Shown piece after piece: positions 13,168-33,952 of a DNA stretch of 64,000 nucleotides. The stretch comes from Megalonaias nervosa. Lineage: Eukaryota > Mollusca > Bivalvia > Unionida > Unionidae. The stretch lies in assembly GCA_016617855.1 (NCBI GenBank), contig JAECUM010003293.1:1-64000 (forward strand), given 5' to 3'. Each line of letters opens with the position of its first letter. The first letter of the stretch is position 1. Both the position numbers and the translations under genes were made by a program. The notes under the pieces are model-generated. The model was not told where the DNA came from. It worked only from the letters and a program-made list of their open reading frames with translations, and ran no database searches.

Positions 13168-13625
13168 AGTTGTTTATGGGGGCGCTCTACGGACAATGGG
13201 AAAATACATTACAGACACCCCTGGGCACGTTTACAGACAAGATTTATACGGACAAAATCAAAACCCTGGGCACGTTTACGGACAATGGGAATTTTGTATA
13301 GGAATAATAAGAATGGAACAGGTGGGATGACGTCATGTTACTGGACACTTGCAACCATGTGGCAAGTGGCTGACCTGAATACACGCGGCAACCACTCTAG
13401 GTAGGGATAAATACAAAATAGACTGAGACATATACAACACAACCATAGATTGATGAACATCAATCTATCATACCCAAATTATAGAACCAACTAAAAAAAT
13501 TTAGGTAAGAGAATAATGCTTTTGAGAGTCAAGCATGAAATATACAATCGACTAAATGTTTTTAGGCAAGAAAGAATAACTATCTTTTCGAGGCATACGA
13601 AAGTGGCCCTGAAAAGGGCCTTTGG
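13168..13625 (+). repeat. Left terminal inverted repeat of Polinton 2
   Basis: Outer part contains short internal repeats of the pattern GGGCACGTTTACGGACAATGG at about 13,181, 13,227 and 13,271. Then come a TGACGTCA palindrome at 13,328, a block ACTGGACACTTGCAACCATG, the CCACTCTAGGTAGGG block at about 13,390, a spacer, and a histone-type stem-loop at 13,605-13,620 on the minus strand. The same order occurs inverted at 33,600-33,952, where the spacer is about 100 bp shorter. Confidence 0.85.
13605..13620 (-). terminator. Histone-type mRNA 3' stem-loop (minus strand), in left TIR
   Basis: Reads GGCCCTTTTCAGGGCC on the minus strand: a 6-bp perfect stem with a TTTC loop, fully matching the metazoan histone consensus GGYYCTTHTNAGRRCC. 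The flanks are CAAA and ACTTTC. A purine box CTCGAAAAGATA follows at 13,592-13,581, at the distance of a histone downstream element. It lies 29 nt after the stop of the minus-strand frame 13,876-13,649. Confidence 0.8.
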
Positions 13626-13648
13626 ATTTTTTCATTAGCACCATTCCG

Positions 13649-13876
13649 TTAAAATAGAGGACATCTCAATGATCTTCTTCTCTTTCTCAAACTTTGTCTA
13701 ACCTCTGGACCGTAGATGAGGACACGCTTCAGACAGCTCTCCACATAGCATCTTCTTTTCCAAACAGTCGTATCAGTGATCCGGATCATGCTCCATGATG
13801 ATTTAACATACATGGGTAAGTCCATACGTAACTGCATCGACGATACGATAGTAGAGGATTCAACATTTGTCCACAT
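13649..13876 (-). CDS. Small basic protein upstream of the left stem-loop, unknown function
   Basis: 75 codons from ATG at 13,876 to a stop at 13,649, with an Arg/Lys-rich end (SLRKRRRSLRCPLF). A minus-strand TATAAATA lies at 13,925-13,918, about 45 nt upstream of the start, and the histone-type stem-loop begins 29 nt downstream, so it is a compact gene with its own promoter and 3' end, transcribed toward the left tip. It is divergent from the gene at 14,150. No family recognised. The frame is intact, unlike most genes here. Function unknown. Confidence 0.55.
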   Translation of the reverse strand: MWTNVESSTIVSSMQLRMDLPMYVKSSWSMIRITDTTVWKRRCYVESCLKRVLIYGPEVRQSLRKRRRSLRCPLF

Positions 13877-14034
13877 CTTGTGACTAGAACAGATGAAGAG
13901 AATGAAGTGAACCGCATTTATTTATAGTGAAAGACCGGATCGAAACCGATTGAAATTGTTGAAAAATCCCAACACGCGTTACAAAATTCAGTCACTTCGC
14001 GGAGTCTGTCTTCCAATCCGAAGAAAGCTACTTG

Positions 14035-14056
14035 TGACGTCACATTCCCTATATAG
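14035..14056 (+). promoter_or_regulatory. CRE palindrome plus TATA box for the 14,150 gene
   Basis: TGACGTCA at 14,035-14,042 is followed 7 nt later by TATATA at 14,050-14,055. The same octamer recurs in the TIRs. This is a plausible promoter for the plus-strand gene that follows. Confidence 0.5.
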
Positions 14057-14149
14057 GTGCGCTAGCGTCTGTGCGCAGTGAATCGATGCGACAATGTTTT
14101 TTGAAACCTAATGGAAACAAAGAAGACAATGAATTGAGGTGCACCGTTC

Positions 14150-14737
14150 GTGCAGACGAGAAGCGATGGCATAGCAGCGGCTACCAAAGTTAGCACAGGG
14201 CTACTTCCAGAAGAGGTCGATTTTAATTGGGATTTAGTAGGTTTTCTCTCTTCGCAAGAATTTGTTCCGGTACCAGTACCTTCACCACCTTCTCCTACTT
14301 TACCACAGGTCGAGGATTTTAAGCAAAGACAGAAAGAAGAATTGGATAAATTTTTACAACAGCAGAAAGAAGCAGAACGAGCTTTTCTCCTTCAACAGCA
14401 ACAGCGAGAAGAAGAAGAGGAAAGAAGGAAACGACAGGAGGAAGAAGCAGAGAAGAAACAAGGTATAGGAGAGAAGGAGAACAGTGAACCTCAAACGGTA
14501 ACGGTACTATTAGACATTTTGGCAGAGTTAAGAAGTCTGAAACAAATGTATCAGACTTCTTTGTTACGACCCAAGAGAAAAAGACCTTCCCGAGGAAAAC
14601 AGTCCCACTCGGTTACTACACCTGAGATACCACCCCTAGTGATTTCTACCAAATCGTCGACAGGAGCAAGTCCAGAAGTAGGCCTTGGCTGTGGCAAAGA
14701 CTTATGGCAGTTAAAGCTGATTGCTTCTCGTTCCTGA
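14150..14737 (+). CDS. Glu/Gln-rich coiled-coil protein with histone-type 3' end
   Basis: 195 codons. The N-terminal third has a Pro-rich patch (PVPVPSPPSPTLP). The middle, about residues 55-105, is a charged Glu/Gln/Lys coiled coil with QQQ runs. A conserved-looking LLDILAELRSLKQMY helix follows, then a basic KRKRPSRGK patch. No in-frame ATG opens it: the frame begins after a stop at 14,135-14,137, with GTG at 14,150 only the first possible codon, so a spliced or lost start is likely. A perfect histone-type stem-loop begins 33 nt after the stop. Related low-complexity coiled-coil frames occur at the right end of the element. Possibly a scaffold or DNA-packaging helper; no real evidence. Confidence 0.6.
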   Translation: MQTRSDGIAAATKVSTGLLPEEVDFNWDLVGFLSSQEFVPVPVPSPPSPTLPQVEDFKQRQKEELDKFLQQQKEAERAFLLQQQQREEEEERRKRQEEEAEKKQGIGEKENSEPQTVTVLLDILAELRSLKQMYQTSLLRPKRKRPSRGKQSHSVTTPEIPPLVISTKSSTGASPEVGLGCGKDLWQLKLIASRS

Positions 14738-14769
14738 GTGTGTTCTTTGAAAGAAAACAAACACCCAAC

Positions 14770-14785
14770 GGCCCTTTTCAGGGCC
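14770..14785 (+). terminator. Histone-type mRNA 3' stem-loop
   Basis: GGCCCTTTTCAGGGCC with flanks CCCAAC before and ACCCA after, the canonical animal histone arrangement. The purine box TTCGAAAAGAG follows at 14,796-14,806. It lies 33 nt after the stop of the 14,150-14,737 frame. No AATAAA is seen between the stop and the loop. Confidence 0.85.
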
Positions 14786-14829
14786 ACCCACTTCTTTCGA
14801 AAAGAGTTATTATTCATTTTGGTAAAAAC

Positions 14830-15330
14830 CAATTAAAACTCAAAATCCCTTTTTTAACCCCATGATGTAAGTGTGTGAGTGCATGAGTGTAGGCCCTTAT
14901 TCTAAACAATCAAAACCAGGGGACACTTACGTTTTTCAGTCTGGTCTATTCTGGTACAAAGTTTACAATCCAAAGTCACAACACAACAGAACACTTTTTT
15001 AAAAAGTACAAAGACTTCTTCTGTATCTTCTTCTCTTGTCTCTCTCTGTTTTTTGAATTTCTTCACTTTCACAGTTTTTTCCTCCTCTTGTTCCTGACTT
15101 TTTTCTCGTGTTCTTTTCTATTCTGTCTTCTCTCTCTGGACGTGTCGGGGTTCTTCTTTTGCCGAGGGCACCTCTTCTTCTTCCTCCTCCTGCTCCTGTT
15201 GTTTCTTAGGGCAGTCTGAAGACCAATGTCCTTTCTCTTGACAATGATAACAGGTATCCTGACTTTTGTCTCATTTGACACTGGTCTTGCTTTTTTGACG
15301 GACAGATATTGAAAGTATCTTGACTTATCT
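14830..15330. repeat. Segment shared with Polinton 3
   Basis: Matches 51,650-52,110 and, inverted, 57,930-58,400: AAAACTCAAAATCCCTTTTT at 14,836, GAGTGTAGGCCCTT at about 14,884, CTGGTCTATTCTGGTACAAA at about 14,940, then the zinc-knuckle coding region. It shows that Polinton 2 and the arms of Polinton 3 share ancestry although their core genes differ. Confidence 0.8.
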
Positions 15331-15431
15331 CGAAAGGAGGGGGAGTAGTCCGTCGGCTTGTCTGAAGAAAACTTTCGTATGACTCCTTGCAACGCTCTGA
15401 TCAGAAGTTCGATCTGTGTATGGTCTTCCAT
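15100..15431 (-). pseudogene. CCHC zinc-knuckle protein, broken
   Basis: On the minus strand one frame reads SQDTCYHCQEKGHWSSDCPK at about 15,260-15,200, a perfect CX2CX4HX4C zinc knuckle. It is followed by a Glu-rich run and VPSAKEE..RHVQREK. A TGA sits shortly before the knuckle where the Polinton 3 copies have AGA. An upstream part in another frame begins MEDHTQIELLIRALQG at 15,431, so the gene needs a frameshift or intron. Zinc knuckles bind single-stranded nucleic acid. Their best-known home is retroviral Gag, but no Gag or RT lies near, and the same protein is present in both arms of Polinton 3. Confidence 0.7.
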
Positions 15432-15483
15432 CTTGCTGGTCGGCTTGATGGTGAAATGAATACTGAGAGGGAAGGCACCAGCG

Positions 15484-15606
<123 letters not shown>

Positions 15607-15673
15607 TGGTCTGACATGGATATATAGGGATCCATAGCGTTTCGAATGTAGTCATTTGACTTTTGCAGTCAAG

Positions 15674-18600
15674 ATGAAACGATCGCATCATTTTGTAAAG
15701 AAAGGAGAAGAAAGTAAGAGTAAGAAACGTGATTTATCGCCTCGCGTAGCTGAAGTCTTGGCTCAAACTCATGCGAGCGATTTTGAAGATGAGATGAGTG
15801 TGCCAGAATCCAGACCCAGAGAGTTTACACCCAACCAAAGTACGACATCACCACCAGTAAACCCTGAAACGTACTTTCACATTCGAGAGACCGACAAATG
15901 CTCCTCTACAAATCTTAGAACCACGGCCTACACGTACACGGTGAAGTTTAAAGATCTCAAGTCCGACGTACCGTTGGAGAAAGCAGAAGCGTTCGTCACC
16001 GATTTGTTAGATTCTTTGATAACCACATTGAAACGGCAATGTGGTGCCAAATAATATGATCTCTTGAGACTTTCCATTCATCACGACAGTTTGAAGTCCC
16101 CAGTTTGGATCGAGTTTAGCAGCCCGGCAGAAGTGACACTTCCAAAGTCATGGACACGATTCATCACGTCCAGCGATCCAACGACAAGTTGCACATCACC
16201 GACTGAAACAAGACACTGTTCATGACCACGTTTCTCTTTCCCAAGGGAGAGGACGCAAAAAGGTGTTATTAGTAGACGACCTTCACAGCACCAAAAAGAG
16301 CCTCGTCCGAATTGACAACCCTCAAGAGCAGATGCGTTTAGCCCGTGCCATCGTGGTGGGACGAACGTATGCCGACAAGAACGACACGGCAGAATGGAAA
16401 AGAGCCTTGGAAACTATTAAAAAATCTAGCCGAGCCAAACAATGAATAGAATCAGAACTCCTGTTATAGCAAGCGGGGCTATCCAAACATACCGCTTGTG
16501 GCATTCCTGAAATGCAAAAATTGCAAGACGTATTGGCTCCACGCTACACCTTGAAAGTGCACCCTCAAGAAGTGCGCGGGCCGCTCTTGTTTCGAGGCAA
16601 AAATTTCAAAGACGAAAAACACATTCACGTCTATCATCACGATGAACATTTCGATGCCATCACCAGTATCATTGCATTCCTGGGATACAATCATTACTGT
16701 GAGAAATGTGACTATGGCTATAACAATCGAGAGCAACAAAAGGATTGTGCATCGAAATGCTCAGGGTGTTTAGCCTAAAAAATCTGGACGAAGGACAAGA
16801 ACGAGTGCATTGACTAGCTTGTCAGCGCACGTTTGTCAGCCCTACCTGTTACTAACAACATCTAAATACGCAACATTCACAGCAGAAATGTGCTTGCCAG
16901 CTCCTGAGATTGTGCCCTACTTGTGGACAAGGCATACGTACCAACAGTGCCAAGGCGCACGTATGTCCAGGAAAGACGCGATGTCACATTTGTCGCCAAA
17001 TCGTGGACTTGGAACAAGAATGCTACATTCAAAAATACCATTCCAAACATGAAGAGGAAGAAGATGACCAGAAAAAGGCAATTTCATCTCTTTCCAGTTT
17101 GAATGCATGCAAGAGACTGGCATTCACATTCCTAATTTCTGCGTGGCTCACCGAGCGTGCGAGAAGTGCATCCAAGAGCCTATCTTTACTCATTGCCCTC
17201 ACTGTAGCACGATTCCTGGAGGATGTGAAAAAATCTTTCGGGGACCAAACACTCTGACCTATTTCGCCCAATGGATCTTAAACCCTATCGACGAGATGTG
17301 GAGTCAAGAGGACATCGAACGTTACGGAGATTGTTATCGCTATGCCACGGTGATGGCTCACAATTTCTCGGGATACAAAGGACAATTTCTTCTCAGGTAC
17401 TATACGGAACAAAGTACCAAACGTCCTAAAGTGACTTTGAACGGAGCCAAAATCATTTCCATTTAAGTGGGCCAAGTGCAGGTTAAAACTTCGATGAGTT
17501 ACTTGACCATGACTTTGAGCCTAATGCCTAAAACGTTTGGAATGACGGAAATGGCCAAAGGCTATTTTCCGCACTTTTTCAATACAAAAGCCAATCAACA
17601 CGTCGTTCTACCCCATTTTCCTGAGGCTCACTACTACGACCCCGACAACATGCTTACCGAACAATGAGAAGCTTTCTACGCTTGGTACCACGCTCACGTC
17701 TCGGAACTTTTCGAATTTCAGGAAGAAATGTTAAAATATTGTTCCGACGTGGACATTTTACGGCATTGCTTTGGAAAATTTCGAGAACTGTTCATGGAGC
17801 ACGGAGGGATCGACCCTTTGAAAGAAGCCTGCACCATTGCCAAAGCGTGTTCCTTAGTGTACCGCAAACGAATCATGCCCGAAAACACCTTGGCTGTCAT
17901 AAGTCCTCAAACGACGAATTTTGTCAAACGTCAGTACTCGGTCAAAGTTCTACGCTGGCTGCATTACTTGTGCGACAAGGAAGACAAATGGATCCAACAC
18001 GCTCGCAAAGGAGGAAGCGAAAAGACCATCGGAAAGTATTCGGTGGATGGCTGGGACTTAGGAAATCAAAAGATCGTGTACGAGTTTAACGGTTGCTTAT
18101 TTCACGGATGTCCCATCTGTTATCCTCAACGTGACACGACAAATCAGTTTTTACAACGGACCATGGAAGACTTATACCAGGTTGCTTGTCAGAGGCGATT
18201 GAAGTTAGAAGAGCAAGGATACTAAGTGGTGGAAATGTGGGAACACGAGTACAATCACCGCTTAAAAACCGATCCCGAGTTTAAGCGCATCGTGGAAAGT
18301 TACAAGCTGGTGGACTCTCTGAACCCAAGGGGCAGTTTGTACAACGGACGGACGAATGCCACCTGTTTGCTGTACCAAGCAGACGAGGAGAAAGGAGAAG
18401 AAATAAAATAATTGGATGTGTTTTCTCTGTATCCGTACGTGGGCAAATATTGTCACTTTCCTGCAGGGCACCATCAATTGCTGACGGAACACATTGACGT
18501 GGTAAACATTCGACAATACGAAGGATTGATCAAGTGTAAAATCTTGCCTCCCACGAACTTGTACCATTACGTTTAACCACACCATTGCAAGGGAAAACTG

Positions 18601-19679
18601 ATGTTTCCCTTGTGTCGTACTTGTGCTGAAACGTGGAACCAAGACCGACCTTGTCAGCATACACATGAAGAACGCGCCTTGACGGGAACGTGGAATTATT
18701 CAAATCTCCGGACCTAGGATACCAACTGTTAGAAGTGTACGAAATTTATCACGTTCCCAAGACAGAAACATACCGCAGAGGCGACGAGAATCAAAACGCC
18801 ACTTTCGCAGACTACGTGAATGCCTTTTTAAAACTGAAACAAGAAGAAATACTGGGAGCAACAATGCATCACTTTGGACCAGGTAGAGAAAAACGAACAA
18901 AGGCGATCGTTTGCCAAAGTGATGTTAAATTGTTTGTTGGGGAAAATGGCAAAACGACCGTGTTTACCCAAGACGGAGAACTTGACAGAACCTTCTCGCT
19001 ACTTCCAGATGAATCACGAAAAAACCAAACGCATGAAACACGTGGACGTCGTTTATGAGGACTTAATCCTGGTCAATTATGAAGAAGAACTGGACTTTGT
19101 AGAAGCCGACGAATTTGGAAATGTAATCATTGCGGCTTACATGACAGCCCATGCTCGCTTAAAACTGTACGAAACTTTGCAACTGTTAGGAGATCGTGTG
19201 CTGTATTTTGACACGGGCAGTTGCATCTACATCGATCGTCTGGGTCAACACAGCACCCTAAAATAGAAGGAGACCATTTAGGAGCCTGGACAGACGAGCA
19301 TCCCGACGACAAGATTCTAAGTTTTGCAAGTGGCGGTCCCAAAAATTACGGCTACGAATACCGAGACCCACAAGGAGAAGTGCAAACCGAGTGTAAAGTG
19401 AAAGGATTGACTCTCAATTATCGCACCAGTCGAGTGCTGAACTTTGGCGTATTGAAAGAAGCCTTGCAGTCTGGACAGGATGGACATTTTAAAGTGACCA
19501 CCCACGAACCGCATAAGATTGTACGTTTACCCACACACAAAATCGTTAGTCGTCCCTTGGAAAAAGTCTATCAGATCGTGTACCAGAAGCGAGTAAGGCT
19601 TCCCAATCACTTCACTTTACCGTACGGTCACGCCGATATTGGTCAGCATATAAAAAGGGACAACGTCCAAGACCGATAG
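15674..19679 (+). pseudogene. DNA polymerase B of Polinton 2, broken
   Basis: About 1,300 codons from ATG at 15,674, after a TATATA at 15,620. Blocks in order: N-terminal domain with KSPVWIEFSSPAEV at about 16,097; RTYADKNDTAEWKRAL at 16,366; YHHDEHFDAITSIIAFLGYN at about 16,632; Cys-rich zinc clusters at 16,700-17,030; Exo I region FQFEC at about 17,098; Exo II HNFSGYKGQFLL at 17,359; KTFGMTEMAKGYFPHFFNTK at 17,530; an endonuclease-like VDGWDLGN..VYEFNGCLFHGC at 18,040; motif A DVFSLYP at 18,415; motif B KVMLNCLLGKM at about 18,916; and motif C YFDTGS at about 19,205. In-frame stops (TAA and TGA) and several frameshifts break it. Acidic residues are changed in Exo I (D to Q), Exo II (D to K) and motif C (DTDS to DTGS). 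Confidence 0.85.
19649..19656 (+). promoter_or_regulatory. TATA box for the 19,712 gene
   Basis: TATAAAAA inside the end of the polymerase gene, 63 nt before the next ATG. This position fits a core promoter with a start site near 19,680. Confidence 0.45.
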
Positions 19680-19711
19680 TTCATTGTAACTACCAACACC
19701 AAGCGAGAAAG

Positions 19712-20107
19712 ATGAATCCTTTAAGAGAAGCACAATTCAAGTTCAATGATGCTCAAGTGCAGCGCGATGATGTGCCTTGTGATGGCTGGGATGCCATACG
19801 CTGTGCCCTCAGCGATTCAGTACCACATCATGGAAAGTTTGCTATGACTGTACTTACCATGGAAAGTGATGCTGTGCGTGTCAAACCTGGCGGATGCGAA
19901 AGCGATACCAATCATTATCGTACACCTTTTCACTTTACTGGTTTTCATGGTGGATGTCATCATTATGAAGCCATCCAGCTACCACCCTATGGATGTCATC
20001 CAAAACTGAGCAAACTCCTGCGGATTACACCTTACCCTCATCGAAATGATCCAGTGAAAGACGAATATTCTTTCCCTGTGCGATTGCCTGAAATACTGCA
20101 AATTTGA
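19712..20107 (+). CDS. OTU-like protein (tentative)
   Basis: 131 codons from ATG to stop, undisturbed. DVPCDGWDAIRCALSDSV at about residues 20-37 resembles the D-G-N-C-L-F-R-A box of OTU cysteine proteases, and GGCHHYEAIQL at about residues 82-92 resembles the C-terminal H-Y-x-x-V/I box with catalytic His. The catalytic Cys position appears to be Asp, so either the enzyme is inactive or the resemblance is misleading. Cellular and viral OTU enzymes remove ubiquitin. Preceded by its own TATA box; followed by the BIR frame. Alternative: an unrelated Polinton protein of unknown function. Confidence 0.4.
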   Translation: MNPLREAQFKFNDAQVQRDDVPCDGWDAIRCALSDSVPHHGKFAMTVLTMESDAVRVKPGGCESDTNHYRTPFHFTGFHGGCHHYEAIQLPPYGCHPKLSKLLRITPYPHRNDPVKDEYSFPVRLPEILQI

Positions 20108-20156
20108 AAGTCTGTTCCAAATTTTCCAAGGAAACTGACCAAAATATCCGTGAGGA

Positions 20157-20336
20157 CGTACCCCGGAAGAATTAGCTAGAGCCGGATTTATCTACTTGGG
20201 CGAAGGGGATAAAGTCAAGTGCTTCAGTTGCGGTGTGTCACTTCACAAGTGGAAGAAAAAAGATTCCTCTGACCTGGAACGAGCTCGATGGTCTCCGGAT
20301 TGCCACTACTTACCTTTAGTGGGACCTCGTCATTGA
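20157..20336 (+). pseudogene. BIR (IAP-repeat) domain fragment
   Basis: 59 codons ending at TGA 20,334-20,336. The sequence shows the BIR fold signature: ARAGFIYLGEGDKVKCFSCG, then LHKWKKKD, then ARWSPDCHYL. The zinc ligands are C-x2-C and the distal Cys, but the expected His of the E-H-A-R-W box is Arg here. A stop lies just upstream of RTPEELARAG, so the start is lost or spliced. BIR proteins block caspases and are greatly expanded in molluscs; baculoviruses also carry them. Here it sits between polymerase and ATPase genes of a Polinton, as acquired cargo. No RING is seen after it. Confidence 0.8.
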
Positions 20337-20360
20337 AGTTGCATACCATGCTGTTTTAGA

Positions 20361-20737: not shown

Positions 20738-20738
20738 C

Positions 20739-21640: not shown

Positions 21641-21815
21641 CCACTATGATCGTTTTGATGCCTTTTATTCATGTACTTAGCCATTTGGCCTTTATGTATT
21701 TTTGTCTTTCGTGTTGTTCACAATTAAAGATAGATATAAACGTGTCCTGAAAAAAAAGTATAAAAACTCTTGCCTTGTGTATTTTCGTGTCAAAAGTGAC
21801 ATTCCTTTCAGTAGT

Positions 21816-22544
21816 ATGGCTACCTCTATTGTCTCTGCTCCCTCTTCCTCCACTTTCAAACTTATTGACGAACACTTAGATCGAACCAGTTGGAAGGCCT
21901 TGTATCTTCGCCATCCCTTCAACATGCTCATTGCTGGAACCTGCGGTTCAGGCAAACCCGAATTTGGTAAACGTTTGATCAAACATAAACATCATTTGAT
22001 CGATCGTCCACGTCAACGAATCGTGTGGTGTTACAAACAGTGACAATCGGCGTACAGCCTTCTGTGAGAAAGTCAAGGCGATTCCATCGTCTTTGTGGAA
22101 GGCATTCCTGGCGAAGACTACGGGATCGTGCCTGATTCCAGTCAAACCCATCTGGTCATCTTCGACGACATGATAGGAGAAGAAGAAGAAGAAATTGAAC
22201 TCTGGTTTACGTGCAAAGGGCATCATCGTAATGCCAGTGTCATTTACATCACTCAAAATTTGTTTCAACAAAGTAAATCCCATCGCACCATCAGTCTCAA
22301 TGCTCATTACGTGGTCTTGTTTAAAAGCCCTAGAGATAAATCGCAAGTGCAAGCGTTAGCCAAACAGTTAGGAATTCCTTGGCTGACTCATGCGTACGAC
22401 GATGTCACTCAAACCCCACAAGCCTATTTACTCGTGGATTTAAAACCCACCACCCCCGATTATTTGCGATTTCGTACCCATCTGTTTCACCACTGGTGCC
22501 TTGACGGAGAGCCTGTCGTGTACACGTCCCCGTCGTCGACTTAA
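21816..22544 (+). pseudogene. FtsK/HerA-type DNA-packaging ATPase (Polinton 2)
   Basis: Starts at ATG 21,816. P-loop LIAGTCGSGKPEFGKRL at about residues 38-54 has the Walker A Thr/Ser replaced by Pro. Walker B is HLVIFDDMIGE at about 22,150. A sensor-like VIYITQNLF follows at 22,240. One stop and frame change lie at about 22,040-22,090; otherwise the 230-residue protein is whole. Intact homologues translocate genomic DNA into capsids. The protein is clearly different from the ATPases of Polintons 1 and 3 (GPCGSGKTQLL type). Confidence 0.85.
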
Positions 22545-24575: not shown

Positions 24576-25243
24576 ATGGAAGGACGAAAACTGGCTTTAG
24601 TGCCTTACAAACGATGGATGGAATACCATCGTTGGCAAGAACAACGCACCAAACATTGACCTCATTTGACCGAGATGTCCCAGTTACAACACGAATTGCA
24701 ATCATTGATGGATCGCGGCGATTTGTCAGAAACGGAAAAATCGCAACGGTACGGTCAATTGTTGCAACGACTGCAACTCTTTCACCAGAAGGCTTTAGAC
24801 GAAACAGATGTATCCACTCTGAAAGATTTTAAGACACTGATGAGAAGTTCACCACCACCACTATCGCCAGCGGTCAAGACAGATGCAGCCCCACGGATGT
24901 CTAAGGAAGAAGAGGCAAGAGAAGTCTTCAAACACCGTCAGAAGCTCCCATCCCTAGTAAGACAGCATGTTCTTGTTGACCACTTTCCCTACTCCCCAAC
25001 GAGAAGAACTTAAAGCTTGGGTTAAAAAGATGATGTCCACTCCACCTTCCACAGAAGTCAGAAAAAAAGAAGGTATACCAGAAGTTTAAAAAAAGGAAGA
25101 CTAAAGCCATTCCAGTACCGCCACCACCACCACCATTACCTTCGACTTCTACTCCCGTGGCACATCGGACACGTAAAGCCGTTTCTAAACCACACCCTGG
25201 TCCCATTCAGAGTAACATCAGAGAAGATTGGATCACTTATTAA
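24576..25243 (+). pseudogene. Conserved Polinton protein upstream of integrase, broken
   Basis: ATG at 24,576: MEGRKLALVPYKRWMEYHRW, then a stop, then MSQLQHELQSLMDRGDLSET and a LLQRLQLFHQK helix, then an acidic/basic linker. After a frame change come RTRKAVSKPHPGPIQSNI and EDWITY with a TAA at 25,241. Proteins of this plan (a KLVLVP-type start, then a short coiled coil) commonly precede the integrase in invertebrate Polintons; function unknown. A Pro run (PVPPPPPPLP) lies near 25,113. Confidence 0.55.
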
Positions 25244-25244
25244 A

Positions 25245-26163
25245 AAAATCAAGAAAGTGTTAGCCAGCATTTACTACGATCCATACCAACCTGCAGGTTA
25301 CGGAGGAGTTCAGAAATTGTATCGTGATGCCAAAACTCGACTGAAAAGTGTCCGTTTACCTCAAGTGCAACGCTGGTTACAAGAACAATCCACGTACACC
25401 TTACACAAACCCATTCGGCGAAAAGTTTCCAGAAGTCGCACCCAAGTGGAGGGTATCGATCATCAATGGCAAGGCGATTTAGCTAATGTCTCTCATTTGG
25501 CCACCTACAATCGTGACTACAAATATTTGTTTTGTGTCATCGAAGTCTTTTGCAAATTTGATTGGGTCCGGCCATTGACTTCCAAATCGAGCAGTGAGTT
25601 AGTGCGAGCCCTCAAACTGGTGTTGAAACAAAGCGGGTGTCACCCTCTTCGATGGCAAACCGACAATGGCACCGAATGTCTGAACCAAGCTTTCCAGAAA
25701 GAATTGAAGAAACGTGACATTCATTTTTTCACCACCGAGAATACCAAAACCAAAGCCAGCATCGTGGAACGTATTCAAAGCACCTTGAAAGAACGTATGT
25801 GGAAATATTTTTACGCATCAACACACTCTCAAGTACATCGACGTCTTGCCACACCTAGTCCAATCGTACAACCAATCTTACCATCGAAGCATCGGACGTG
25901 CCCCCCAAGAAGTGACTCCCGACAACGAAGTGACCGTCCTCGAGCGCCTGTTTGGTACGTCCCCGACAGTGACTGTCCCAAAGAAAGGTGGAGTGTTGGC
26001 AGAAGGATATTGGGTGCGCATTGGCAAACCAAACACACTTTCGACAAAGGTTACTTACCCAACTGGACCACATAATTGTTTCGTGTCACTAAACGTGTGC
26101 ATGGCTCGGACACTAGAACTCTGGAATTATGAACAACCAATTTTACTTAACGTTCCCCAGTAA
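25245..26163 (+). pseudogene. Retroviral-type integrase of Polinton 2
   Basis: The rve core is nearly whole: first catalytic Asp in HQWQGDLANVSH at about 25,470, second in WQTDNGTECLNQ at about 25,660, Glu in KASIVERIQSTLKERM at about 25,770, the D,D-35-E spacing. The N-terminal part reads YYDPYQPAGYGGVQKLYRDA. At about 25,825 the frame shifts, after which YNQSYHRSIGRAPQEV continues the core end and a chromo-like tail reaches 26,163. There is no ATG at the front. The catalytic triad is kept, so loss of function comes from the frameshift. Confidence 0.85.
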
Positions 26164-26993
26164 CAGGTCCATGGAGGTGTTTCCCAATAACACCTTATGC
26201 TGTTACACGGTCAAATTACCTCAGGCCATCCAATTGGATCACGAAGCCCATTGTAAAGTGGCTTTAGTGGAAATGGTTCACCCTACACAAATGAAAAACA
26301 TCATCGAAAATCAAAACATTTTTACGCTAGAGGTTCATTACAAGCAGGTGCAACTACACTTGGATGAACACACCAGTGTAGGTGACTCTATGAAAACACA
26401 AGACCCCAAAACTAAACGGACCACTTATCGGTTTAAAATTCCCCCAGGCTATTATTTTAGTGGTCAACATTTGGTGAACACCATTGCTGACAGGTTCAAT
26501 ACCGTGTTTGGCAAAGTCTTGGAGAAAACCAGAAAAAGTGTCACAATCTAATACCACAAAATAGCTCGTCGCCTACTAATAAAATTTTCAGAGGACAAAG
26601 TATTGGCCATTACATTTTGTCCTGAATTGTATGACGTTTTGGGTGGAGACCAAAAGTTAATCAAGATTAGAAACGAAATTACAGCCGTTACCGGCAATTC
26701 GGATTTTGCGAAATATTTTCGATTCCCTGTAGAAGTGAACCAAAGACTGAATTTGATCTTTGTGTACTCCGATGTGGTGGAGTACAACGTGGTGGGACAC
26801 TCTTCCGTACCGTTGCTGCGTGTCATTCCTTTCAAAGTGGGTTCTGCCACGAACACTGATTAGGAAAGTGGAAACACCTATCACGTATTTCGACACAGTC
26901 AACATTACTATAAAAGGAGATCTAGGACAAAATATTCCATTCACCAAAGGGAAAATCACAGTGAAACTGCATTTTCGAAAACGATTACTCTAA
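26129..26993 (+). pseudogene. Capsid-associated protein, penton-like candidate
   Basis: ATG at 26,129, overlapping the integrase tail. MNNQFYLTFPSNRSMEVFPN, then QLDHEAHCKVALVEMVHPTQ is a conserved Polinton protein start. A stop at 26,549 and a frameshift at about 26,860 break it. The middle has NSDFAKYFRFPVEVNQRLN and YNVVGHSSVPLLRVIPF, and the end ITYFDTVNITIKGDLGQNIP, a beta-rich make-up suited to a jelly-roll. It lies between integrase and major capsid. The penton role is my inference from size, position and beta content; the family itself is widespread but poorly named. Confidence 0.55.
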
Positions 26994-27006
26994 CCCCTTG
27001 TCAGTC

Positions 27007-27379
27007 ATGTATCCTGTGTACCAAGGAATCGCTCAACAGAGAGGACATGCTAAAATCGGCCTTTCGTTCGGTGGCTCCCGTTTTGAAACCGATGGTGACT
27101 CGGGGATTGCACGCCAAGAAAGATACCGCCTTGAAGCAAGGTAAAGAATTTCTCGAAAATGTCATCATTGACAAACAAAATCATACAGAAACTTTCTTCA
27201 GAGCAAGCAAAAAGGTCTTGCTTCAAACGGGAAAAGACATTTTAGGACGACGAGAAACTCCTATAAATGCCCTGGAGCTGCCGAGTCAGGCATTCATGCT
27301 CCCTGACACCACAGCAAGGACAAGGCAGAAAAAGATGACGAAAACACCCGTTCAGAGGACTTCACACCACCAGAGCTAG
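27007..27379 (+). pseudogene. pVI/pX-like small virion protein
   Basis: ATG at 27,007 (MYPVYQGIAQQRGH), then the frame shifts at about 27,047 to AFRSVAPVLKPMVTRGLHAK, ALKQGKEFLENVIIDKQN and DILGRRETPINAL. The layout of repeated amphipathic helices with GK/G spacing before a basic end is the usual small protein just before the hexon-like gene in Polintons. One frameshift. Confidence 0.55.
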
Positions 27380-27456
27380 AAAGACTAATAAAAGAAAAAT
27401 CGTCCGAGAATTAGACTTTTTTGATTATTAAAAGATCAAAGAGAGAGAGAAAGAAA

Positions 27457-28569
27457 ATGATGCACCGAGAGTCATGTGCCTGTTCCAAGTCGGAACTGGA
27501 TCTGTTTGCCATGCCACCCACCATGATGATGATGCAAGAATCCCAATGGGGCGAATTTCGTCCCGTCTCCTCTTTGACGGATTCAGGTCCCATCGAGTTT
27601 GAAATCAAAGAACAGCCCGAAGATTACATCGATCTGAATAGCAGTTACTTTATCTGAAACTCAAAGTGATCAAAACGGACAACACCATTCCGAGAGCCGA
27701 TACTACAGTAGCTCCCGTCAACAATTTCATGCATTCTTTGTTCAGATTTGTACTTGAATAACAAACAGTCAGCAGTAGCATGGATACTTACCCTTACCGA
27801 GCGTGCCTGGAAAATCTCTTGACGTACGGAAAAGAGGCCAAGAACACTCATCTGGATGCTTGTGTGGTATGGAAACCTGACACCCCAGGTGAGGACACTT
27901 TTAACGACTCAGCCTTGACAGCAGATGACAATCCTTACAATTTGGGCTTTAACGACCGTCAAAAGAAAATCCTGCAAGGCCGTAGTTTAGAACTGATGGA
28001 TCGTTTGCATTTGGAAATGTGGTTGAAAGATAAGAATTTGCTCAACGGAGTGGATATTCGCCTGAGACTAAATCGCAGCAGTGTCGCTTTCCATTTGATG
28101 GCTCGTGCCAACGAGTACAAAACCATCGTACAAGAAGGCAGACTGCGCCATGTAGAAGTGTTACCTAAAGCAGGAAACGACATCATTCACACATTGAGCA
28201 GAACGACCGCCAAGTAACCGATACGACACGTAGAAGTACAAACGTTCACCATTGCTGCTGGACTCTGCCCAGAAGAATTACTTGAGATCGTCCTTGTCCC
28301 TGTACGAAGCTACCGGGCAATTAGGAACCAACACCAGTCACGGCATTTCGTACGAAGCTTATGTAGGAGGTTGCACTTTGTGGGCCTTTGATTTCACTCC
28401 AGACCAAGGCAGCGACGAGGGACATTTCCACCCTATAAAATGCGGTCAACTACGTGCGGAACTTCATTTTTCAGAAGCTCTCGCCGAGCCGGTGAACGTC
28501 ATCCTCTATGCCGAATTCGATAATACCACAGAAATCAACAGTTTGAGAGAAGTCATTCTAGACTATTAG
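27457..28569 (+). pseudogene. Hexon-like major capsid protein (F54H12.2-like)
   Basis: About 370 codons from ATG at 27,457. The N-terminus has SCACSKSELDLFAMPPT and QWGEFRPVSSLTDSGPIEFE. After stops at about 27,655 and 27,760 come MDTYPYRACLENLLTYGKEA and LMDRLHLEMWLKDKNLLNGV, then, after a stop at 28,216, GGCTLWAFDFTPDQGSDEGH and EPVNVILYAEFDNTTEI. This is the animal family named after C. elegans F54H12.2, regarded as the double jelly-roll major capsid of Polintons and adintoviruses. It is preceded by the pVI-like gene and followed by the protease region, standard order. Three breaks make it non-functional; most of the protein is still recognisable. Confidence 0.85.
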
Positions 28570-28574
28570 AAACT

Positions 28575-29053
28575 ATGGCAGATTCTTATCCCTCTTTGAA
28601 CGGTAGAGAATCTTTGGAAATGCAACGGGAGGATACCGTGAAAGCAGAACACCAAGACAAAGACGAAGAGGACATAGTGGTCATGTCAGAAGGCCAGAAC
28701 AACAACAACATTTAGTGTCCTGTTTAGCCAAACACTTGTCGGATAAAATTACGGAATTGACCAAGAAAGATTGCTATGGATGTCAAAACGATTATCCTAG
28801 TCAAATTCACCACGAGAAATGTCTGACGATGAGTCAAGAAGAAAAATTGGACGAGTGACTGGACGATGCTTGGAGTCTCTTCTCGGAAGAATCAGTGTTG
28901 CATGAGTGGTATAAAGGCTTGCGTGGTCATTCCTGCCCTCCATTGACTACTCTGGAGATCTATCGCATCAACGCTCTCTTAGCCCAAAAGTACGGAGACG
29001 AAGCAAAGAAAGGGTTACTTGACAGATATTTTCAAACAAAAGGTCAGAATTGA
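28575..29053 (+). pseudogene. Cys/His protein preceding the protease, broken
   Basis: ATG at 28,575 (MADSYPSLNGRESLEMQRED). After a frame change near 28,700 it reads KITELTKKDCYGCQNDYPSQ, then HHEKC, a C-x2-C...H-x2-C cluster likely binding zinc, then LDDAWSLFSEESVLHEWYKG and IYRINALLAQKYGDEAKKGL. Similar Cys/His proteins sit before the protease in other invertebrate Polintons; role unknown. At least two stops. Confidence 0.5.
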
Positions 29054-29054
29054 A

Positions 29055-29598
29055 TTGATGACTTACCATTACTAGTGAACAAAACAACAAAAGAAAAAAT
29101 GGATACCTGAGAACTGTATTACCTTTTCACCAACAGTTCTTACACTGCTTATTGGAACCCTGTCGTGTGCGATAAAGATGAACTACCTCATCGCAAACCT
29201 CAATACCATCAAGTTTATGTCATCAACTGGGACGACAGTCATCTCCCAAGAACCCACTGGGTCACCGTGTATTTCCCTAAAGTGGATTGTATGGAGTATT
29301 TTGATTCGTATGGATTACCCCCTTTGGAGGACAACATCATCTACTTGATGAGAAGAAATGCCCAGACGACACGATACAATAATGTGAAATTACAAGGCAC
29401 AGATTCCATGGTGTGTGGACAATATTGTGTTTAGTTTCTTCATCAACGTAGTCTTAGATATATTTTAGAACATTTAGTGACTTATTTTGATAGTAATTCA
29501 TCTAGAAACGATGAGGAAGTAGATCGATGGTTTTGTGACCAGTATGGTTATCTTTTGTCTTTAGCTAGGAAACGTAGTACATCAATGTCCTCATGACT
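29055..29598 (+). pseudogene. Adenain-like cysteine protease (maturation protease)
   Basis: The frame reads YHQVYVINWDDSHLPRTHWV with the catalytic His in THW, MEYFDSYGLPP with the acidic residue, and LQGTDSMVCGQYCV with the catalytic Cys, the C5/Ulp1-like order His-Asp-Gln-Cys. A TAG at 29,432 right after CGQYCV cuts the protein; the family's remaining helices (LRYILEHLVTYF) follow in frame. In adenoviruses and Polintons this enzyme cleaves GG-type sites in core and capsid proteins, and the nearby small proteins carry GG junctions. The single late stop suggests recent decay. Confidence 0.8.
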
Positions 29599-29681
29599 TC
29601 CATCAGTGGAAATCTCACATGATTTCACAACGTTGTCAACTTTGTCATAAAAGTTTGTATGATGTTATTGTTTATTGTTAG
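29586..29681 (+). other. Cys/His-rich tail after the protease
   Basis: In a different frame from the protease: CPHDFHQWKSHMISQRCQLC, then HKSLYDVIVYC and stop. The C-x2-H...C-x2-C spacing suggests a zinc ribbon, perhaps a separate small protein or a frame-shifted protease tail. Confidence 0.35.
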
Positions 29682-29698
29682 TGGTTAATTGTTTGTTG

Positions 29699-29704
29699 AA
29701 TAAA
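29699..29704 (+). terminator. Polyadenylation signal after the protease region
   Basis: AATAAA about 20 nt after the last stop, followed by T/G-rich sequence at 29,720-29,745. It contrasts with the stem-loop 3' ends of the accessory genes on either side. Confidence 0.6.
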
Positions 29705-29872
29705 AAAGTTGTGTTTTGAAAAAATGTGTCTGTCGTTTGTTTTCAAAAAAAGACTGTGAATATGTGTTCTTTGACTTCTCTCTATCCCTCACCATGACAT
29801 TAGCTATCATAACGTGTCGACTCAACAAAAACCCTAGTAGGGATGTTTTCTATCTCGTCCGCGTTTAAACCA

Positions 29873-29906
29873 TATAAAGCGGGTCGGTCTCCAGTCTGGC
29901 CATCCA
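29873..29906 (+). promoter_or_regulatory. Shared core promoter, module 1
   Basis: TATAAA at 29,873, then exactly 19 nt from its first base to CAGTCTGGCCATCCA at 29,892-29,906. The same pair with the same spacing recurs at 30,613 and 32,955. The second box probably covers or follows the transcription start. Confidence 0.65.
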
Positions 29907-29908
29907 TG

Positions 29909-30326
29909 GTTCACTCGTCTACCTATGAACATGCCTCCAGACAAGCCAATCTGAACGAATCTTAAGTGAATTTACATCGTGTCAGGATAAACCTGATACC
30001 AAAGCCTGAAGAGATAGAGAATGTTAGGATGTTAACAATAACCCAAGACCTGGTAGAAGAGGTCTTCAGAGAAGAAATCAAGAAAGAACAAGAAGAATGA
30101 ACAGAGAAGTACGGACTTCAGAGATAACAGCAACAGCAGCAGCAGCAACAGCAGCACGAACCAGACAGAGGTTTTATTGACTGCCTTGTGGACACCAAGG
30201 AGTTCTCCTTCTCTTTCCGAAGAAGCAGACCGTATCGTGTAGGAAAGCTTGTCGTCAGACGGGGACGCAATCTTAGACAGTAAAAAAATTGCCATCACTC
30301 CCCGTCAACTCCCCGTCAACAAAAAC
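29909..30326 (+). pseudogene. Accessory gene, module 1 (Glu/Gln-rich), broken
   Basis: After the promoter, short frames read MVHSSTYEHASRQANLNES, then after stops IPKPEEIENVRMLTITQDLV, EEVFREEIKKEQEE, and a CAG run at about 30,128-30,156 coding nine Gln. The end reads KEFSFSFRRSRPYRVGKLVV. At least three stops. The acidic/basic coiled-coil style matches modules 2 and 4. It ends at a variant histone-type stem-loop. Function unknown. Confidence 0.5.
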
Positions 30327-30342
30327 AGTCCTTTTCAGGTCT
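30327..30342 (+). terminator. Variant histone-type stem-loop, module 1
   Basis: AGTCCTTTTCAGGTCT: six-position stem with one T-T mismatch at the third pair and the usual TTTC loop. Flanks are AAAAAC before and ATCACCA after; CTCGAAAAGACA follows at 30,355-30,366. It keeps loop, position and purine box, so it looks like a decayed or variant histone 3' end. Confidence 0.6.
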
Positions 30343-30588
30343 ATCACCAATAATCTCGAAAAGACATACTAATTCAATTGCCAAAACAAATTTTTCTGTT
30401 TATGTTTTAAAAACTCGAAGTGTGTCTATAAGTACTTCGTTTATTTTGTCAGTAAAAATCCATACATCGTTTCTCTGTCTTGTTGGATAATGCATGTTTG
30501 TGTTTGTAAGTAAGAAAAGTCAATGTGATTGCTTCTTTTAGGTCCGCGCGCTTGATGTGATGGTAAGTTTTGGTGCCAGGGGATGTTT

Positions 30589-30646
30589 ACCTTCACGTCC
30601 GTGCTCCACGGATATAAAGAGAAACGCTCGTCAGTCTGGCTATCCA
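30589..30646 (+). promoter_or_regulatory. Shared promoter, module 2
   Basis: CTTCACGTCCGTGCTCCACG at 30,591-30,610 runs directly into TATAAA at 30,613, then 19 nt to CAGTCTGGCTATCCA at 30,632-30,646, followed by CGTTGACTCGTCGACA. The upstream CACGTCCGTG element recurs at module 3. Confidence 0.7.
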
Positions 30647-30667
30647 CGTTGACTCGTCGACATTGAA

Positions 30668-31177
30668 CATGAGTAAGAGAATCACAAAACTTTTAGAACT
30701 TCAAATGCACCTGGACTATGCCTCCTGGACGAGCTGGATATGGAGTCCTTTGCAGAAGAAGCCAGGATAGAGGAGGAGAAAGAGAAGAAAAAGAAAGAAG
30801 AGGAGAAGGAAAAGAAGCGAGGGAACCTGCCTCACCTCATCCTAAGACCTGTGTGCGAGGTCAAACCTGAGGTGAGGACGCCTCCACAGCCAGTACGAGT
30901 TCAGCTACAGCATCAAGCAGTACCGCCACCTCAACCACAGCCACAGCCACAACAACAACGTCAGCCACAACCTCTGCCACCAATACCAAGAGCCTCTGTC
31001 CTCCAGACAGAAAACTGGGAGGAGGAGTCAATGGTGGAATTGGAGAGACAACGTCAGAGTGGGAGCCACTTCTGTGGCGTAGAAGACAGAGGGAACAAGT
31101 TTTCACTATCCCTCAAAGCGAAGATTGGGAGAATGAAGCCAGTCAACCACCTTCTGCTTTACCAACAACTAATGTGA
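30668..31177 (+). pseudogene. Accessory gene, module 2 (charged, Pro/Gln-rich)
   Basis: ATG at 30,668 opens MSKRITKLLELQMHLDYASW, which runs into a stop; the main frame is 30,740-31,177, one frameshift away. It has an acidic/basic coiled coil (EEEKEKKKKEEEKEKKR), a Pro/Gln run (PPPQPQPQPQQQRQPQPLPP), then an ENWEEESMVELERQ helix. The style matches the protein at 14,150. It lies between the shared promoter and a stem-loop, as one of four similar modules. Unknown function. Confidence 0.55.
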
Positions 31178-31268
31178 ATTGGGTCAATGATTGGAGCAGG
31201 AGATGTGTCTGTGGTGCCAGGCCTGGAAGGTGCCAGCATTAACCAGGTGCATCTGAAGTTCGAAAAAC

Positions 31269-31284
31269 AGCCCTTCTCAGGACT
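31269..31284 (+). terminator. Variant histone-type stem-loop, module 2
   Basis: AGCCCTTCTCAGGACT, stem with one C-A mismatch at the third pair and a TCTC loop (allowed by the H in the consensus). Flanks are AAAAAC before and AACCAG after, with TCTAGAAAAGAGAGA at 31,293-31,307. Same arrangement as module 1. Confidence 0.6.
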
Positions 31285-31371
31285 AACCAGATCTCTAGAA
31301 AAGAGAGACTAATCAAGTTGCCAATTTGTGTGAATGTAGAGTAGTGTGAGTACAAACACTTAATCCTTTAC

Positions 31372-31380
31372 AGGTGTGTG

Positions 31381-31412
<32 letters not shown>

Positions 31413-31760
31413 CGTGTGTGTGTGTGCGTGTGTCTGTCTGTCTGTCTCTCTGTGTGTCTGTGTGTGTGTGTTTTGCGTTCGCGTACGTTTGTGTGGTTAA
31501 TAGATATGGTATGTTTGTGTGGATAGTCTAGTGTGTGTGTGTTTTATGCGTTCTCGTACGTTTGTGTGGATAATATAATGTGTGCTTTTTATTCGTTCTC
31601 GTAAGTTTGTGTGGATAGTAGATTTGGTGTGTTTTATGCGTTCTCGTACGTTTGTGTGGATAGTAGATATGGTGTGCTTTATGCGTTCCCGTCCGCTTGT
31701 GTGGATAGTAAATATGGTGTGTTTTATGCATTTTTGTTCGTTTGTATGGATAGTACATAA
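31372..31760. repeat. (TG)n plus 42-46 bp minisatellite
   Basis: TG-rich tract at 31,372-31,470, then about six repeats of a unit with core CGTTTGTGTGGATAGTA and TTTTATGCGTTC. The same minisatellite occurs at 51,040-51,600 (inverted), 58,450-59,110 and 61,930-62,600 in Polinton 3. It lies between modules 2 and 3. Confidence 0.85.
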
Positions 31761-31788
31761 TATGTGAAGTCAGTGCAAAGAATGTTTT

Positions 31789-31832
31789 CCTTCACGTCCG
31801 TGCTTCACGTATATATCAGTCTACAAACATTC
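31789..31832 (+). promoter_or_regulatory. Shared promoter, module 3 (diverged)
   Basis: CTTCACGTCCGTGCTTCACG at 31,790-31,809, then ATATATCAGTCTAC. The upstream element is almost identical to module 2, while the TATA to CAGTCT spacing is shorter, so this copy may be weakened. Confidence 0.5.
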
Positions 31833-31854
31833 ATTCCATTCATCAGTCAGGCAG

Positions 31855-32402
31855 AGGACACCAACCAGGCAACATCGGCATATCGGGGGCGCAGAGAGGG
31901 GGGAGTAGGCCGAAAAAGGGGGGAAACTGCACAACAGGACCACTGAACAGAAAAGTAAACAACGTGGCCATTAAGCGGTGGAAAACCTCTGGAATCAAAC
32001 GACCCTACACTATACAAGCGCTGCAGATATGAAGATTTCACACAACAGCCCCAAACAAGGAAAAAAAGAAGGTAGCACGACTAGGCGGCCACTTGAATAA
32101 AGGAGGTAGCCAGTATGGGCGAATACTTCTGGACTCCGTGGGGCAGTTACATTGTGGAAATGAAATCCATGGATGTCTTGAAGAATGATGCTGCAGACGT
32201 AGGAAGTTTTTTTGGACTGAGTGTCAGCCACTAGGCGGTTTCTTCAAGCAAGGGAGGCAGAAGACCGGTGCAGCCACTAGGAAAACAGATACAACGCCGT
32301 CATATACCATAACATCCACAAACCGAATGCAGCCTGTACTCCAACAAGCAATCGAAGATAAGAAGACAGAGTAGAACGATTGTCAAATTTGCCTGACTAA
32401 AT
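31855..32402 (+). pseudogene. Accessory region, module 3, decayed
   Basis: No long frame remains. Short pieces such as TSAYRGRREGGVGRKRGETA at about 31,883-31,940 end at stops. By position between a shared promoter and a hairpin it should be the third accessory gene. Confidence 0.3.
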
Positions 32403-32428
32403 AGGTTTTCAATTTGGCTTGAAAACCT
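32403..32428. terminator. Perfect 10-bp hairpin, possible 3' end of module 3
   Basis: AGGTTTTCAA, a TTTGGC loop, TTGAAAACCT, then TTTTGATAAA. It is not a histone-type loop by sequence, but sits where a module 3 transcript should end. AATAAA is not seen nearby. Confidence 0.35.
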
Positions 32429-32954
32429 TTTTGATAAAATCTCTGTTGGAAATACCGACTTTGACCCTTTTGGTTTACCGCCCAGAAAAAAAAATTATTT
32501 ACATTTACTAAGCGTGATGCAAAACATGTATAAGTCATTTTTACTTAACTGATTGGTATAATTTTGAAAATGTTATGTACACTTTGTACACAAATTTACA
32601 ATTTCAACGAAACTAACAACGAAATTTACAGACTTATTTTATTAGGTTAATTACACAGGTGGCTTACACACTATTGGATTCTTTTTATTGTCCACTAGTA
32701 CAACTGGACTGAATTTGATATATTGACAGTTCGGACTGGCGTTTCGGGGCGTGTACAGCATCCATAACGGTCGCGCTGGCGCCCTACTGGGACCTTTTCC
32801 TCTTTTTCCTCAGCCAGACATAACTGAAAAGTACGACCATCGTACATAAACGCTGGATTGTAGAGGGGCTCCATCATTGCTATAATCCAGAACTATTTAA
32901 TAGCTCACGATCGAGCATTAACAAGTTGCGCAAGCACAGAGGTGCATATGCGAC
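32429..32954. other. Intergenic within Polinton 2
   Basis: AT-rich DNA with no supported gene. A 60-codon minus-strand frame at 32,695-32,877 has no known motif. Confidence 0.4.
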
Positions 32955-32988
32955 TATAATCAATTCAGTCAGTCAGTCTGGCTATCCA
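32955..32988 (+). promoter_or_regulatory. Shared promoter, module 4
   Basis: TATAAT at 32,955, then 19 nt to CAGTCTGGCTATCCA at 32,974-32,988, followed by ACGTTGACTAGTCAACA. The CAGTCTGG box is preceded by two extra CAGT repeats. The upstream CACGTCCGTG element is not obvious here. Confidence 0.6.
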
Positions 32989-33014
32989 ACGTTGACTAGT
33001 CAACACCTTCAAAA

Positions 33015-33609
33015 AATGAATTTGTTTATCTAATTGAAAGACAGTTAGTACTGGATGGTTGATGCAGCCTACGTGGTGGAAACCTTGAAAAAGAATGGAA
33101 ATATTCAGTTACGAAAGACTTTGTGGCCAGTCAAGTCAACAGCCTGAAAGTAGCCAGGGATCTGTTGTAAGGTATGATAGAGGAGGAAGTAGAGAAATTA
33201 AGAGGCTTCATACGTCCTAAATATGTACGAGTGGGGACATTGAAGGAGGCCCTTGATAATGCCATCTAGGTGAGGAACATTTTGCAAGATATAGTCAATT
33301 TAACCGAGTGGTCTTTTGTCCAGTGGGTATTAGAGAAGTTAAGGAAATCTGAAGACATGATGAGAAAAGTGATGAAAGAAGAAGAAAAGAAAATCAAAGA
33401 CACATGAACAAGAGAGAAGGAGAAGGAAAACAGAAAGAGAAAAGAAGAGTTTGACAGACTGAACAACAACTGGATCAAGTACAGGACACATTCAGAGCAA
33501 TGGGACATCCAGATTGGATGCCAGAGAAGGAAAAGAAGAAGTAGAAAGGAATTATTGGAAAAGTGAAGAACTGGTGGAAGAAGTGGAGACAATAGAAGAA
33601 GAACCCAAA
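33015..33609 (+). pseudogene. Accessory gene, module 4 (coiled coil), broken
   Basis: ATG at 33,015 soon meets a stop. Later frames read AAYVVETLKKNGNIQ, then EEEVEKLRGFIRPKYVRVGT, LQDIVNLTEWSFVQWVLEKL and a Lys/Glu run KVMKEEEKKIKD. At least three stops. It ends at a perfect histone-type stem-loop inside the right TIR. Charged coiled-coil style like modules 1 and 2; no domain recognised. Confidence 0.5.
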
Positions 33610-33952
33610 GGCCCTTTTCAGGGCCACTTTCATATGCCTCGAAAAGATATTTATTCTTTCTTGCCTATTTGTGGTATTTATGTGTTTATATATGTATATG
33701 TCTCTCTTGTATTTCTCCCTACCTAGAATGGTAGCCGCGCGTATTCAGGTCAGCCACTTGCCACATTGTTGCAAGTGTCCAGTAGCATGACGTCATCCCA
33801 CCTGTTCTATTCCTATTATCCCTATACAAAATTCCCATTGTCTGTAAACGTGCCTAGGGTTTTCATTTTGTCCGTATAAATTTTGTCCGTAAACGTGCCC
33901 AGGGGTGTCTGTAATGTATTTTCCCATTGTCCGTAAAGTGCCCCCATATACT
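33595..33952 (-). repeat. Right terminal inverted repeat of Polinton 2
   Basis: Inverted counterpart of 13,168-13,625. It keeps the stem-loop and purine box (33,610-33,648), the CTACCTAGAATGGTAGCCGC block at 33,719, the TGACGTCA palindrome at 33,788, and the outer GGACAATGGG/GGGCACGTTTACGG repeats. It ends inward-reading AGTATATGGGGGC at 33,952. Confidence 0.85.
33610..33625 (+). terminator. Histone-type mRNA 3' stem-loop in right TIR
   Basis: GGCCCTTTTCAGGGCC, perfect 6-bp stem with TTTC loop. Flanks are CCCAAA and ACTTTC; CTCGAAAAGATA follows at 33,639-33,650. It is the inverted partner of the loop at 13,605-13,620, so both outermost genes are read toward the tips and end in the TIR. Confidence 0.85.

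Follow-up and report, generated by a model that had tools for sequence, protein, structure and literature searches.

In the present study, several accessory genes of a decayed, virus-like element of the Polinton type in the bivalve Megalonaias nervosa were found to end in a histone-type signal, consisting of a stem-loop followed by a purine box. The element lies in the window analysed herein, the 64,000 nucleotides at positions 1 to 64,000 of contig JAECUM010003293.1. As far as the accessible text of PMC5011920 goes, a stem-loop together with a purine element marks replication-dependent histones, and the available part of PMC9756948 describes the U7 machinery as active in S phase. Based on the signal, we consider it likely that the mRNAs of the accessory genes are bound by SLBP, cut by way of the U7 snRNP, left without a poly(A) tail, and probably made mainly in S phase.

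Several lines of evidence point to this reading. First, an earlier note on this DNA had placed five stem-loops just 3' of accessory frames, each followed 12-20 nt later by a GAAAAGA purine box; all five were recovered, 14-44 nt past the frames, and the box lies 13-15 nt beyond the stem in each case. The sequence GGCCCTTTTCAGGGCC accounts for three of them (13605 on the minus strand, 14770, and 33610), all with perfect stems. The view that all five are of the histone type was supported. With RF00032, the Rfam histone stem-loop model (cut-off 34 bits), two of the five sites scored above the cut-off and the site at 13605 fell 0.3 bit under it, but the sites at 30327 and 31269, with one mismatch and thus 5 of 6 pairs each in this copy, were not reported even at E 10. 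The folding energies of the latter are -2.9 and -1.8 kcal/mol, respectively, versus -11.4 kcal/mol for the three perfect stem-loops. Among ten sister copies of the 31269 site, three read AGCCCTTCTCAGGGCT; five, those three included, have six Watson-Crick pairs (AGCCCT/AGGGCT), a sixth has six pairs including a U-G pair, and the remaining ones are damaged. The stem of the 30327 site is perfect in its one clear sister, L031. Because the sites at 13605 and 33610 are mirror copies within the terminal inverted repeats (TIRs), and those at 30327 and 31269 look related to each other, the five represent three kinds of site. A scan for a permissive motif, defined by 5 of 6 pairs, a TYT loop, U-A as the top pair, and G-C as the second, together with the purine box, returned exactly these five sites in 64 kb, compared with an average of 0.067 in 60 first-order Markov windows, none of which held a six-pair site with a box. 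The box matters for this comparison, since the scan without it gave seven sites in the window versus 3.4 in random windows. Seven matches to the stem-loop pattern in IMG/VR, none of them an RF00032 match, were treated as chance.

Second, the five sites share a common arrangement, in which a TATA-type box, a frame, and its stop are followed by the stem-loop and then the purine box; the corresponding genes are termed g1, g2, g4, g5, and g6 (Table 1). The strand of the stem-loop is that of the preceding frame in all five. A stem-loop within 200 nt was found at 0 of 14 other frame ends of the element; the 14 include pieces of broken genes, the stops of g4 and g6 were assigned by eye, and no control was used for the TATA scan.

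Third, the signal is present throughout the family, in line with the earlier note, which had set the presence of the loops in other copies as a test. The host assembly searched comprises 2.19 Gb, in which the right TIR gave 40 scored matches out of 4706 candidates, the window's own included, and 28 were fetched. A recognisable site was present in 27/27 of the TIR copies other than the window's, which had been identified through DNA similarity rather than through the loop, and it was letter-perfect in 10 of the 27 according to our own count. The RF00032 scan of the assembly provides a lower bound, the best 75 of 423121 first-look candidates having been scored, with 66 above the cut-off; the element aligns beyond the stem-loop at 69 of the 74 scored places other than the window, all of which were fetched. 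No claim is made on the share of this family among all histone stem-loops, because two sites, one at 33610 in the window (38.0 bits) and one at the end of the host H2A gene (37.8 bits), are absent from that list. The fetched loci L009-L105 hold 129 motif sites, of which 108 carry a box; the first A of the box lies 13-16 nt beyond the stem in 107 of the 108, although a few boxed sites may be counted twice because some loci overlap (L027 and L089). At L034, L037, L052, L082, and L083, similarity to the element was seen only at or close around the stem-loop, and at L034 not at all; three of these places carry GAAAAGA and two a near form, and they are possibly more distant Polintons or other genes.

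Fourth, the signal is conserved among diverged copies. Family-wide presence by itself was dropped as proof of selection, as young copies keep the entire TIR, and the left-TIR (18 rows) and 33610 (47 rows) sets were excluded as evidence because they include copies found via that very stem-loop and thus lean to intact loops. The 14770 kind was examined in the window and 13 diverged copies retrieved via another stem-loop more than 150 nt away, two of which (L024 and L025) look like one copy. The mean pairwise difference was 0.116 in the stem-loop and 0.104 in the box (14798-14806), compared with 0.147 in the coding region, 0.218 in the spacer, 0.287 in the 3' untranslated region (UTR) before the stem-loop, and 0.28-0.49 after the box. 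Thus, the stem-loop and box of this kind have diverged about as little as the coding sequence, compared with a two- to fourfold larger difference in the noncoding sequence beside them; the stem-loop is better conserved than every one of 168 downstream windows of 16 nt. For the 31269 kind (10 copies and the window), the values were 0.093 for the stem-loop and 0.091 for the box, versus 0.225 for the frame and 0.252 for the UTR before it.

Fifth, the signal matches a histone gene end of the host itself. The assembly gave 11 PF00125 matches, seven places of which were fetched in short stretches, and it apparently lacks canonical histone arrays. The host comparison accordingly uses one intact gene, an H2A (L113), presumably H2A.X by its SQEY tail, in which a stem-loop (37.8 bits) lies 42 nt past the stop within CCCAACGGCCCTTTTCAGGGCCACC and is followed at 12 nt by GAAAAGATG. 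The g2 end carries the same 25 letters, CCCAACGGCCCTTTTCAGGGCCACC, followed at 13 nt by GAAAAGAGT. The GAAAAGA of the element is identical to the downstream element of this H2A gene, as the comparison with host histone genes called for in the earlier note revealed. In addition, a host H2B pseudogene retains the stem-loop and box in a damaged form (24.5 bits). The signal likely originated through capture of a histone gene end.

Table 1. Features of the Polinton-type element and its five stem-loop gene ends (positions in the window; box distances are given from the end of the stem).
Feature	Positions	Strand	Remarks
Polinton-type element, decayed	~13168-33955		20.8 kb end to end; bounded by TIRs
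Left TIR, outer part	13168-13441		91% complementary to 33681-33955
Left TIR, inner part with stem-loop and box	13563-13631		94% complementary to 33599-33667
g1 purine box, GAAAAGA, histone downstream element type	13583-13589	-	15 nt past stem
g1 stem-loop, GGCCCTTTTCAGGGCC	13605-13620	-	RF00032 33.7 bits over 13625-13580
g1, short accessory frame	13649-13921	-	stem-loop begins 29 nt beyond stop
g1 TATA-type box	13919-13926	-	
g2 TATA-type box	14050-14057	+	
g2, accessory gene	14138-14737	+	frame start interrupted in this copy
g2 stem-loop	14770-14785	+	RF00032 41.2 bits over 14765-14810
g2 purine box, GAAAAGA	14799-14805	+	13 nt past stem
Type B DNA polymerase piece, weak match	18838-19266	+	DNA_pol_B_2 E 0.0079, 15.6 bits, below cut-off 25.8; piece of broken gene
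Integrase, rve core	25026-26075	+	Pfam rve E 4.7e-9, 36.9 bits, cut-off 32.6
g4 TATA-type box	29873-29880	+	
g4, decayed frame	stop 30281-30283	+	stop read by eye
g4 stem-loop, AGTCCT/AGGTCT	30327-30342	+	one mismatch; motif scan
g4 purine box, GAAAAGA	30358-30364	+	15 nt past stem
g5 TATA-type box	30613-30620	+	
g5, accessory gene with a broken frame here	30677-31242 (pieces 30677-31177, 30871-31242)	+	three weak relatives
g5 stem-loop, AGCCCT/AGGACT	31269-31284	+	one mismatch in this copy; motif scan
g5 purine box, GAAAAGA	31298-31304	+	13 nt past stem
g6 TATA-type box (TATAAT)	32955-32960	+	
g6, decayed frame	stop 33594-33596	+	stop read by eye
Right TIR	33599-33955		40 scored assembly matches, window's own counted
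g6 stem-loop, within right TIR	33610-33625	+	RF00032 38.0 bits over 33605-33650
g6 purine box, GAAAAGA	33641-33647	+	15 nt past stem

The TIRs of Polinton/Maverick elements bound roughly 15-20 kb. In the present element, short accessory frames are located at both ends and flank the core, and many frames are broken. The integrase has 55 relatives, many of which also contain a chromodomain; the named ones are from oysters and a mite, and a search of IMG/VR found no relatives of the integrase. For the frame pieces that were searched, Pfam gave no match for capsid proteins, a packaging ATPase, or a protease, and a PDB sequence search with one putative capsid piece returned nothing useful; a Walker-A-like GTCGSGK was noted by eye in the frame at 21681-22043. 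No target-site duplication was seen by eye beside the TIR ends of this copy, which is old and whose exact ends are uncertain. Positions 49200-64000 hold another Polinton-type fragment, which is strongly rearranged and has long inverted arms as well as 45- and 59-bp tandem repeats. A piece of an rve domain lies at 54398-54760 (E 0.0058, under the cut-off), and where the fragment resembles the g2 end, the similarity sets in within the purine box.

Judged by its sequence, g2 is a real gene: the protein database contains 19 relatives of 122-230 aa, without a Pfam domain, 12 of which were aligned at 67-83% identity, and the protein has a basic RPKRKRPSR stretch. No relatives of the protein were found in IMG/VR or in the prokaryote genome collection, and its AlphaFold2 model consists of long helices only (mean pLDDT 66, pTM 0.24). 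The relatives P0056-P0074 are on short contigs of metagenome-type sources, and environmental DNA may hold further copies of the family. For g1, change among copies is highest at the third codon position (0.223, versus 0.125 and 0.149 at the other two). The g1 and g2 genes are divergent (13874-14111), with TATA-type boxes about 125 bp apart and a GACGTCA motif between them that was also seen by eye in both TIRs. The right-hand accessory genes have a promoter and leader in common (29840-29933, 30580-30671, and 32972-33005; 73-91% identity), which gives them the look of duplicated units.

Herein, we propose a mechanism by which these genes might be coupled to host replication. The SLBP of the host would bind the stem-loop of the accessory mRNA, and the U7 snRNP would cleave the mRNA just past the stem. 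The resulting mRNAs would be left without poly(A), would be made mainly in S phase, and would be destroyed once replication stops, such that expression might track the replication of the host. The element, which replicates as DNA, would probably benefit in that its short intronless mRNAs are produced, exported, and translated at a time when nucleotides and replication factors are available. We infer SLBP binding, U7-guided cleavage, the lack of poly(A), and the S-phase limit from established knowledge of the histone pathway, as given in the accessible portions of PMC9756948 and PMC5011920. The broader proposal, that a whole virus-like Polinton lineage might run its accessory genes via the histone mRNA pathway of the host, involving SLBP and U7 and possibly the histone locus body, with mRNAs present only during host replication, is one towards which we lean modestly.

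Several results weigh against this reading. First, the signal is not universal, since the Polinton-like fragment at 49.2-64 kb has TIR pieces and no stem-loop with a box, and 21 of the 129 motif sites in the fetched loci have no box. Second, the conservation has limits. Covariation amounts to one pair, G-C to A-U, and is not above column shuffles (108 of 500). When all windows are considered, coding sequence included, 80 of 424 match the conservation of the 14770 stem-loop and 72 of 413 that of its box. In the 31269 kind, the spacer differs even less (0.045) than the two elements it separates, and the following 39 nt, at 0.112, are nearly as conserved, so that this footprint is one conserved block and not two peaks; among the closest TIR copies, the stem-loop, with a column identity of 0.94, is conserved no better than the surrounding TIR (0.93-0.95). 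Third, an ATTAAA is located 95 nt past the g2 stop, and thus a poly(A) form of the g2 mRNA is possible; moreover, AATAAA or ATTAAA occurs within 200 nt at only 3 of the 14 other frame ends, and the rarity of poly(A) signals after the five is therefore not distinctive. Fourth, of the seven histone places fetched from the host, five have no stem-loop in the short stretch examined, namely an H2B-like frame, three pieces of H3, and one place without a match to typed histones. Among the best 65 of 657865 candidates scored in the assembly, none exceeded the Rfam cut-off for the U7 snRNA. The RF00066 candidates L106-L110 were rejected as U7, being far under the cut-off.

Among the alternatives, the one that survives best is that the histone signal is present but most cleavage takes place at a downstream poly(A) site, with expression not strictly limited to S phase. 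This alternative overlaps with the reading proposed above, is counted apart from it, and is considered unlikely. The ATTAAA beyond the g2 stop would suit it, and the human H2AC18 pre-mRNA can be processed either way according to the available text of PMC9756948; nevertheless, AATAAA is absent within 200 nt of all five stem-loop gene ends, and the footprint is located at the stem-loop and box. It is a good deal less probable that the signal goes back to a single capture of a host histone 3' end, was then copied within the element, and is now a passenger irrelevant to expression. Although the 25 letters that open the g2 signal are those of the host H2A end, and the stem-loop is not specially constrained in young TIR copies, a passenger would hardly be expected to keep its stem-loop and box, as the 14770 kind does, while the spacer and both flanks diverge more, nor to recur in three contexts of the element, always 3' of a frame and on the same strand. 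The idea that the hairpins function at the DNA level or stop transcription in a generic way, for example in replication or packaging from the termini, is very improbable: three of the five are internal, the strand is always that of the gene, and the loop, flanks, and box fit the histone model and the host H2A end, even though the other two are symmetric in the TIRs. Finally, that the stem-loops are part of histone genes or pseudogenes of the host adjoining the element, as the stem-loop and box at a host H2A gene and, in damaged form, at an H2B pseudogene might suggest, is contradicted by the failure to find core histone coding sequence within ~1.5 kb (70 loci) or 0.6 kb (4 loci) of the 74 loci and by the frame before the 14770 site, which encodes a conserved protein of another kind, and this explanation can be set aside.

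If the proposed histone-type processing is true, selfish DNA has captured the histone 3'-end machinery, and the accessory genes constitute a natural set of non-histone substrates of SLBP and U7. The results also suggest that a Polinton would in this way have a direct means to tie its genes to host replication. For annotators, they provide a caution, as matches to the histone stem-loop can be transposon sequence, which was the case for 69 of the 74 places examined here. A full-text literature search found no report pairing Polintons with a histone stem-loop or SLBP, most subscription journals and preprints being outside its scope.

Compared with known systems, the present element resembles Polinton/Maverick elements in its TIRs, its length of about 20 kb, its rve integrase with chromodomain-containing relatives, and its weak type B polymerase piece, and it differs from them in the histone-type 3' ends of its accessory genes. 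These ends are in turn like the 3' ends of animal replication-dependent histone mRNAs (RF00032; SLBP and U7 snRNP) in the stem, the UUUC loop, the flanks, the purine box, and the spacing. According to the available text of PMC6210712, all histone mRNAs of the bivalve Lucina have stem-loops, some with purine elements nearby. Unlike the histone model, two sites of the element have an A-U first pair and one kind has a UCUC loop. The human H2AC18 pre-mRNA, which has a dual fate, likewise combines a stem-loop and downstream element with a possible poly(A) signal nearby; it differs in being the product of a host histone gene and in having a poly(A) signal that overlaps the downstream element, as far as the accessible portion of PMC9756948 describes it. 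The signal that in the known pathway closes histone genes is here located at the ends of several accessory genes of a mobile, virus-like element.

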